Shown here piece by piece: positions 5,993-6,668 of a DNA stretch of 13,377 bases; position 1 is the stretch's first letter; each line of letters opens with the position of its first letter. The stretch spans positions 1 through 13,377 of the forward strand of contig JACPHL010000162.1 of the NCBI GenBank assembly GCA_016188625.1. Reading direction: 5' to 3'. The notes beneath the pieces were generated by a model. The model was not told the origin of the DNA and ran no database searches. It was given only the letters and a program-made list of their open reading frames with translations. This DNA comes from Candidatus Rokuibacteriota bacterium. GTDB lineage: Bacteria; Methylomirabilota; Methylomirabilia; Rokubacteriales; JACPHL01. The position numbers were made by a program, and so were the translations under genes.

Positions 5993-6022
5993 CGGAAGGG
6001 GGGCGGAGCCCCCCTCCGAGTT
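5993..6022. repeat. GC hairpin repeat, copy 2
   Basis: CGGA, one base, six G, C-GGA-G, six C, then TCCG make a hairpin (5993-6018), followed by AGTTT. Arms and flanks match the copy at 261-292; only the loop triplet and arm length differ by a base. It lies between the thioesterase stop and the selenoprotein promoter. It could end the upstream operon, but only three U residues follow. The outer motif CTCCGAGT also occurs just upstream, at 5965-5972. Confidence 0.6.
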
Positions 6023-6024
6023 TC

Positions 6025-6033
6025 TGCTATAGT
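6025..6033 (+). promoter_or_regulatory. extended -10 element before the selenoprotein gene
   Basis: TGCTATAGT is one base away from the extended -10 consensus. Its end is 6 bases before the ATG at 6040, so transcription would begin at or next to the start codon, giving a leaderless mRNA. GGAGG sits between the two, but only one base from the ATG, too close for normal Shine-Dalgarno use. Confidence 0.45.
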
Positions 6034-6039
6034 GGAGGC

Positions 6040-6393
6040 ATGACGCCGGCGGTCCTCTACAACCGGCCCGGCTGACCCACCTGCCTCGGGGCGAGGGAGT
6101 TTCTCTCGGCACGCGGCATCGAGTTCGTGGAGCGCTCCGTGGAGGCGGCCCCGGTGGGGAAGGAGGAGACCGCCGGCCTCGCCCGGCGGGCCTGGGAGCT
6201 CTACGTGAAACACGGCCAGGAGGTCCTGCACTTCGAGGCGGGACGGAACCCGATCACCGATGCCGAGATCCTGGCCTACCTCGTCCACGATGACGGCCAG
6301 TTGCGCGTCCCGGTGCTCGTGCGCGGGGGACTCCTGGTGCGGGGCTATACCGAGGAGCTCTACGCGCGGGTCTTCGGGGGGGAGGGGCGATGA
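6040..6393 (+). CDS. glutaredoxin/ArsC-like selenoprotein (UxxC)
   Basis: Reading the in-frame TGA at 6073-6075 as selenocysteine gives a 117-residue thioredoxin-fold protein. It begins MTPAVLYNRPGUPTCLGARE, with Sec12 and Cys15 exactly where glutaredoxin-like proteins have CPxC after a beta strand. FLSARGIEFVERSV matches the second helix and strand of the glutaredoxin/ArsC fold. RVPVLV carries the expected cis-Pro (91), and LLVRGYTEEL fits the ArsC-like ending. The same frame continues without a stop to 6393. A SECIS-like hairpin follows the TGA (6092-6108). A reader ignoring Sec would call only a GTG-started fragment from 6127. Expected role: thiol/selenol redox reaction in the cytosol, perhaps reducing a disulfide, peroxide or oxyanion; substrate unknown. 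Its stop overlaps the next start (ATGA). The alternative is a Cys-to-stop pseudogene, less likely given the placement. Confidence 0.82.
6073..6075 (+). other. in-frame UGA, predicted selenocysteine codon
   Basis: The codon sits at position 12 of the frame, between RPG and PTC, where Cys is expected. Conserved coding sequence lies on both sides. TGA is an ordinary stop in several neighbouring genes (for example 1024, 5518, 8737), so it is not reassigned in this genome as a whole. Confidence 0.8.
6092..6108 (+). promoter_or_regulatory. candidate bacterial SECIS hairpin
   Basis: CGAGGGA (6092-6098) pairs with UCUCUCG (6102-6108), seven pairs including one G-U, around an apical loop GUU (6099-6101). 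The loop starts 23 bases after the UGA and begins with G. This agrees with the bacterial SECIS model: short loop, G in the first two loop positions, loop about 16-37 bases from UGA. A competing hairpin, CCUCG-GGG-CGAGG (6084-6096), is possible. Found by hand, not by folding software. Confidence 0.6.
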
Positions 6394-6668
6394 TCCCAGA
6401 GGCGGTCATGGAGGAATACCGGGAGGGCTTCGACACGAGCCTCTCGCCTTCCCTGGAGACCCTGGCCCGGAGGCGGATGGAGTACTTCAGAAAGGTGAGC
6501 GGCGACACCCGCCTGTCTACCGCCGACCGGGTGCTGCTCCTCACGCATACCGACGCCGTCCTCCTCTACAGCCTCCTCTCCTTCGACGCCTCCTCCAAGG
6601 AGAACGCCAAGAAGTACATGAACGCCGTGGCCTCCACGGTCCTGGAGCTCATCGACGAGCGGGAGTGA
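6390..6668 (+). CDS. hypothetical helical protein coupled to the selenoprotein
   Basis: I do not recognise this 92-residue protein. It is rich in charged and Leu/Ala residues with predicted helices throughout, no signal peptide, no membrane segment and no Cys. Visible stretches include MEEYREGFDTSLS (7-19), RRMEYFRKVSG (28-38), a hydrophobic core around VLLLTHTDAVLLYSLLSF, and KENAKKYMNAVAS near the end. The ATG overlaps the stop of the selenoprotein gene (ATGA), so translation is probably coupled and the two may act together. If Sec decoding failed, ribosomes would not reach this start from upstream, so expression could depend on selenium. Codon use resembles that of its neighbours. Clearly a coding frame; function unknown. 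Confidence 0.75.
   Translation: MIPEAVMEEYREGFDTSLSPSLETLARRRMEYFRKVSGDTRLSTADRVLLLTHTDAVLLYSLLSFDASSKENAKKYMNAVASTVLELIDERE

Follow-up and report, generated by a model that had tools for sequence, protein, structure and literature searches.

The locus considered here raises the question of whether a TGA codon lying in frame near the beginning of a short open reading frame ends a protein or specifies selenocysteine (Sec). The reading frame is located on the forward strand of a stretch of 13,377 nucleotides (the window), which is contig C292 of a 2.6-Mb Rokuibacteriota MAG that is 84% complete. When positions 6040-6393, stop codon included, are translated with TGA read as Sec, the result is a protein of 117 residues (MTPAVLYNRPGUPTCLGAREFLSARG...LRVPVLVRGGLLVRGYTEELYARVFGGEGR), whose gene has a single internal TGA at 6073-6075, corresponding to codon 12, and a terminal TGA at 6391-6393. 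A first-pass annotation of this DNA had described a frame opening at ATG 6040 and interrupted only by the TGA at 6073, with the motif RPG-U-PTC and fold-preserving residues further downstream, and each of these statements was exact upon translation. It had also anticipated that ordinary gene calling would shorten the protein to about 88 residues, which is the case, as a standard ORF listing of the window holds only an 88-aa GTG ORF (6127-6393) at this locus. In the read-through protein, Sec12 would open the motif U-P-T-C, in which the TGC at 6082-6084 encodes Cys15, the second residue of UxxC and the presumed resolving cysteine. Further downstream, the CCG at 6310-6312 encodes Pro91 of RVPVLV, which is invariant in alignments A1 and A2 and, judging from the fold family, is expected to be the cis-proline of the thioredoxin fold.

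Evidence that the TGA is read through comes from relatives of the protein. Of the 95 genomes of the phylum, 79 had a match to the read-through sequence, and among the 30 best full-length matches, the window included, 28 have TGA at exactly codon 12, in all cases followed by P-(T/A/S)-C, with Cys15 present in 28/28 Sec forms. The remaining two, L045 and L046, have Cys at codon 12 in an altered motif, CDCPxS, and Ser at the position of Cys15. TGA was found again in five more distant genomes (L084-L088), and the IMG/VR contig L069 has TGC at codon 12 in the motif CPAC. Conservation in the relatives continues on both sides of the TGA, including the upstream residues LYN, and given this, along with the breadth of the matches and the recurrence of the TGA, the frame is not due to chance. 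In-frame TGA therefore stands where homologues have Sec or Cys (28 TGA and two Cys forms, with Cys also in L069), which is the pattern by which bacterial selenoproteins are recognised, and the homologues with Cys or Sec at position 12 that the first-pass annotation had proposed looking for exist in both kinds. Those relatives that have named records are MAGs of Rokuibacteriota/Rokubacteria and Methylomirabilota, and a scan of 84,980 species genomes for related loci returned Rokuibacteriota/Methylomirabilota only, although such a scan, which uses short peptide patterns, is no proof of restriction to the phylum. No relatives of the selenoprotein were found in the plasmid collection searched.

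The machinery needed to decode UGA as Sec is encoded in the same genome, where profile searches detected SelB (380.7 bits, cut-off 242), and the SelB contig also carries SelA (600 bits) and a tRNA-Sec (selC) with the anticodon TCA (UCA). SelD (395.7 bits) is located on another contig and itself has an in-frame TGA, in the motif GAGUACK. All four of selA, selB, selC and selD, for which the first-pass annotation had proposed checking the genome, are thus found. An Rfam scan of the window returned nothing at gathering score.

A SECIS hairpin is predicted downstream of the TGA at 6091-6109, with a 7-bp stem (6092-6098/6102-6108) and the loop GUU (6099-6101), and its consensus, GYGAGRGA-GNN-YCTCTCG, is present in 28/28 Sec genes, 15 nt past the TGA (window 6091-6108). 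Bacterial SECIS elements have been delimited by a loop of 3-9 nt, a stem of 4-16 bp, a G within the first two loop positions, a UGA spacing of 16-37 nt and an energy of -7.5 kcal/mol or lower (PMC13188914). The predicted hairpin of the window, sought at the suggestion of the first-pass annotation, lies within all of these published constraints (PMC13188914), with G as the first loop position, 23 nt from TGA to loop, and an energy of -8.4 to -10.7 kcal/mol for the hairpin folded by itself. The whole 58 nt from the TGA folds no better than shuffled sequences; the isolated hairpin folds better. A pair-count test for covariation found no pair of the SECIS stem changed on both sides, because the stem is nearly invariant, and for this reason synonymous codon choice was tested instead. 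Within the hairpin, Arg is encoded by AGR in 28/28 genes, whereas AGR makes up 6% of the Arg codons in the remainder of these genes; Leu is encoded by CTC in 28/28 (58% elsewhere), Ser by TCG in 28/28 (25%), Ala by GCG in 26/26 (54%) and Glu by GAG in 28/28 (84%). The joint probability of these codons is ~10^-67 if rows are treated as independent and ~10^-19 if the count is reduced to eight lineages, both values being rough since the rows are related. By this computation the SECIS is under strong synonymous constraint. In the window's own genome, the hairpin pattern occurs in the selenoprotein gene only.

It could be argued that translation truly stops at the TGA, or that this codon is a sequencing error or the result of decay, in which case the gene would yield either no product or the 88-aa protein that starts at GTG 6127, and plain gene calling does yield this ORF. 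However, the same TGA recurs in 27 other genomes and is therefore not a sequencing error, which the first-pass annotation had named as a refuting condition, and the protein upstream of it (LYN) is conserved. Homologues have Cys rather than Trp at this position, the SECIS is conserved, and the Sec machinery is complete. TGA also terminates ordinary genes of the window and thus has not been reassigned. Sequencing error, pseudogene and code reassignment are ruled out by the orthologues, and a codon that simply ends translation here is hardly credible. The first-pass annotation had inferred a real selenoprotein, and given the conserved TGA, the exchange of Sec and Cys, the SECIS and the machinery, the locus is almost certainly a real and conserved selenoprotein gene, with Sec inserted at codon 12, that plain gene calling truncates.

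Loss of Sec appears to have taken different forms among the relatives. In L045 and L046, the stretch corresponding to the hairpin is encoded with GCC, CGC/CGG and CTG, and no hairpin is left, whereas in L069 the Cys codon TGC precedes an intact hairpin, GCGAGGGAGTTCCTCTCGC, that looks like a SECIS relic. Remnant SECIS structures downstream of Cys codons have already been described (PMC1794560). In the tree, the L045/L046 and L069 Cys forms lie at different places among the Sec forms, and so Cys has probably taken the place of Sec on two or more occasions. Although Cys15 is absent from L045 and L046, another Cys occurs two residues earlier (CDC), pointing to a rearranged active site; both genomes bearing them (G057 and G040) still have a tRNA-Sec above cut-off. 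The L069 gene (2995-3294 of IMGVR_UViG_3300044799_000457), as a Cys form with a SECIS, is consistent with a recent change from Sec to Cys.

The best curated family for all 30 members is NCBIfam NF041106, ArsC family (seleno)protein (ArsC_rel_Se_1), with a lowest E-value among the 30 of 8.4e-16; the window protein, at 54.6 bits, scores below the membership cut-off of 85. True NF041106 members, scoring 136-139 bits, coexist in the phylum, and a branch with 100/100 support separates five NF041106-type proteins from 35 window-type proteins of the phylum. The window clade is therefore a neighbouring subfamily and, by the curated rule, not a member of NF041106. The two are alike in length class, in fold family and in having Sec as the first residue of an N-terminal UxxC, but they differ in the motif itself (GUPTC in the window clade, GUxSC/GUxTC in NF041106) and in the C-terminal half, where the window clade has HEDGxLRVPVL...RGYTEELY and NF041106 has GPTGxLRAPTL...LLVGF. 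In a published account, NF041106 appears under the name 'Arsenate reductase-like protein, UxxC' (PMC13188914). ArsC-like selenoproteins were reported in 2006 (PMC1794560) and 2008 (PMC2398784), the latter distinguishing 'Arsenate reductase 1' (UxxS) from 'Arsenate reductase 2' (cd03032, UxxC). These groups resemble the window protein as Sec-containing ArsC/Spx-like proteins, the second of them with UxxC, a likeness drawn from their published descriptions. As reports of ArsC-like selenoproteins with UxxC or UxxS go back to 2006-2008, the kind is already known, and the window clade is a genuine and apparently so far unnamed subfamily of it. No detailed account of selenoproteins of Rokubacteria/Methylomirabilota was found in the literature searched, which did not extend to Deng et al. 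2026 or Haft and Tolstoy 2025; the groundwater survey of Deng et al. 2026 may already list this subfamily.

Several other families match the protein over part of its length. Glutaredoxin (PF00462) is matched at 32.6 bits, above its gathering score of 22.9, over residues 5-45 only, and the N-terminal half with U/CxxC is likewise what matches NF041212 (UXX-star) and TIGR02196 (YruB-like). Models of the UXX-star and YruB type span 70-74 positions, as opposed to 117 aa for the window protein, in whose predicted structure a helix and additional strands are inserted ahead of the cis-Pro strand, an arrangement shared with ArsC and Spx. The ArsC family PF03960 gives a sub-threshold match across residues 8-109 (14.7 bits, cut-off 24). 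Two more probable selenoproteins are encoded in the window's genome, L082 (G000:C9) and L083 (G000:C264), both of them 78-aa glutaredoxin-like proteins with the motif GUASC and a hairpin after the TGA; they are related to the UXX-star/YruB families, scoring under those cut-offs. Another ArsC-like Sec candidate of the phylum, L089 (G063:C219), is of a third kind, with the motif PTUTSC, and exceeds the Spx/MgsR cut-off of TIGR01617 (89.7 vs 75 bits).

Structure prediction places the protein in the same region of fold space. An AlphaFold2 model built from 23 sequences (pLDDT 93.4, pTM 0.87) sets Sec12 immediately before a helix (13-24) and Pro91 immediately before a strand (92-95). Foldseek returned 6gho (E 2.7e-6) among the nearest solved structures, which are Spx and ArsC-related, and VIA aligned 91 residues with 3gfk at an rmsd of 2.9 (Z 10.2). 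Across nearly its full length, the protein is closest among solved folds to Spx and YffB/ArsC-related proteins (3gfk, 1rw1, 2m46), which are ~18-28% identical to it and have Cys where the window protein has Sec; the window protein scores under the curated Spx/ArsC cut-offs. The sequence profiles agree with this placement, and the model supports an Spx/ArsC-like fold of the glutaredoxin-type thioredoxin class. The glutaredoxin/ArsC-like fold named in the first-pass annotation is borne out by the Pfam Glutaredoxin match (E 9e-8) and by the closeness of the model to Spx/ArsC-family structures.

From these features, a mechanism can be proposed in which ribosomes starting at ATG 6040 would reach UGA as codon 12, where SelB with Sec-tRNA(UCA) would bind the hairpin at 6091-6109 and Sec would be inserted, yielding a 117-aa Spx/ArsC-like protein with a U-P-T-C active site. 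In this protein, Sec12 may act as the nucleophile on a disulfide or another electrophile, Cys15 may resolve the intermediate by forming a selenylsulfide, from which a thiol reductant may regenerate the enzyme. That the gene encodes a functional selenoprotein with SECIS-directed Sec12 acting as a selenol-based thiol/disulfide oxidoreductase is, taken as a whole, probable. This statement draws on the computed frame, conserved TGA, Sec/Cys exchange, constrained SECIS, machinery and predicted fold, and its oxidoreductase component, which rests on the motif and the fold, is likely to about the same degree or slightly less.

Other roles have to be weighed for a protein of this fold. Spx has the same fold and a CxxC motif, yet it is a regulator. 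By analogy, the selenoprotein might be an Spx-like redox-sensing regulator whose UxxC serves as a switch for RNA polymerase binding, and the closest solved structures are indeed Spx, several of them complexed with the RNA polymerase alpha C-terminal domain (including 3gfk). However, the protein misses the cut-offs of both TIGR01617 (Spx/MgsR; 29.7 vs 75 bits) and the Spx model NF002459 (19.5 vs 123 bits), and ArsC-related reductases are nearly as good structural matches, so that the fold does not decide between these roles and a regulator of this type seems unlikely. The ArsC-like fold, along with the sub-threshold PF03960 match and the ArsC name carried by the nearest curated model, could instead point to reduction of arsenate or another metalloid oxyanion. 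This is more doubtful still, as TIGR00014 (true ArsC) is absent among the matches of the window protein at E values up to 0.1 and no arsenic-resistance gene was seen among the annotated neighbours in the window. Because the curated Spx and ArsC models were both missed, these two roles are less likely than that of an oxidoreductase.

Context around the gene offers little guidance as to function. Neighbours in the window and those of the relatives have only generic ABC-transporter ATPase matches in common, at several loci; none of the other window neighbours was found beside relatives, and the context therefore provides no functional clue. In eight Rokubacteria relatives, the selenoprotein gene is immediately followed downstream by one for a conserved 113-aa ChrR-type cupin (Cupin_7, PF12973, 74.6 bits), which overlaps the selenoprotein stop codon in most of these loci and is otherwise close to it (L048 5348; L049 4349-4690; L050 5339-5680; L052 5376; L053 3568; L058 3557-3898; L066 5357-5698; L068 2966). 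The window has no cupin at this place and instead has an unrelated 92-aa ORF (6390-6668), whose ATG overlaps the selenoprotein stop (ATGA) and for which no Pfam or NCBIfam match and no homologue beside other selenoprotein genes were found. In cluster c10 (four loci), a glutaredoxin-looking protein is encoded near the selenoprotein gene (L048 8498-8920); it lacks the usual active-site Cys (KVLLYTMEGNADGEAALAFF...VVPTVVIDGRVFFGF) and has no Pfam match. Elsewhere in the window, 1044-2807 encodes an adenine-deaminase-like amidohydrolase that scores 325.7 bits, under the equivalog cut-off of 472.5, and may therefore have a different substrate.

Upstream, the sequence TATAGT at 6028-6033, 6 nt before the ATG, was noted by eye as a possible -10 element that would imply a near-leaderless start, and similar TACAAT/TATACT boxes are seen by eye near the start codon in several relatives. 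A consensus promoter scan reported no promoter upstream of the selenoprotein gene, and for this reason TATAGT is a weak candidate. Directly upstream of the gene, at 6001-6020, lies a repeat, GGGCGGAGCCCCCCTCCGAG, that is dispersed in the genome (137 copies within 2 mismatches, vs 3 for a reversed control pattern). Conservation extends upstream in many of the copies (CGGAAGGG...), while downstream the sequence differs; the repeat looks like a putative intergenic palindromic repeat or terminator.

A broader reading can be offered tentatively, with the balance tilting slightly against it, in which the clade would be an unnamed Methylomirabilota subfamily that has its own near-invariant SECIS, has exchanged Sec for Cys at least twice (with a SECIS relic in L069 and loss of the element in L045/L046), and has a function that no characterised ArsC, Spx or glutaredoxin performs, accompanied in some lineages by the ChrR-type cupin directly downstream. 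According to a 2026 review, a groundwater survey recovered a MAG of this uncultured phylum with 63 predicted selenoprotein genes (Deng et al. 2026, cited in PMC13188914). The selenoprotein gene described here is a missed gene with good computational support, whose 88-aa call loses the active site and whose product would not be named by the best curated model. Its series of orthologues, in which some Cys forms retain a SECIS relic and others do not, provides material for studying the loss of Sec and also serves to define SECIS elements in this phylum.
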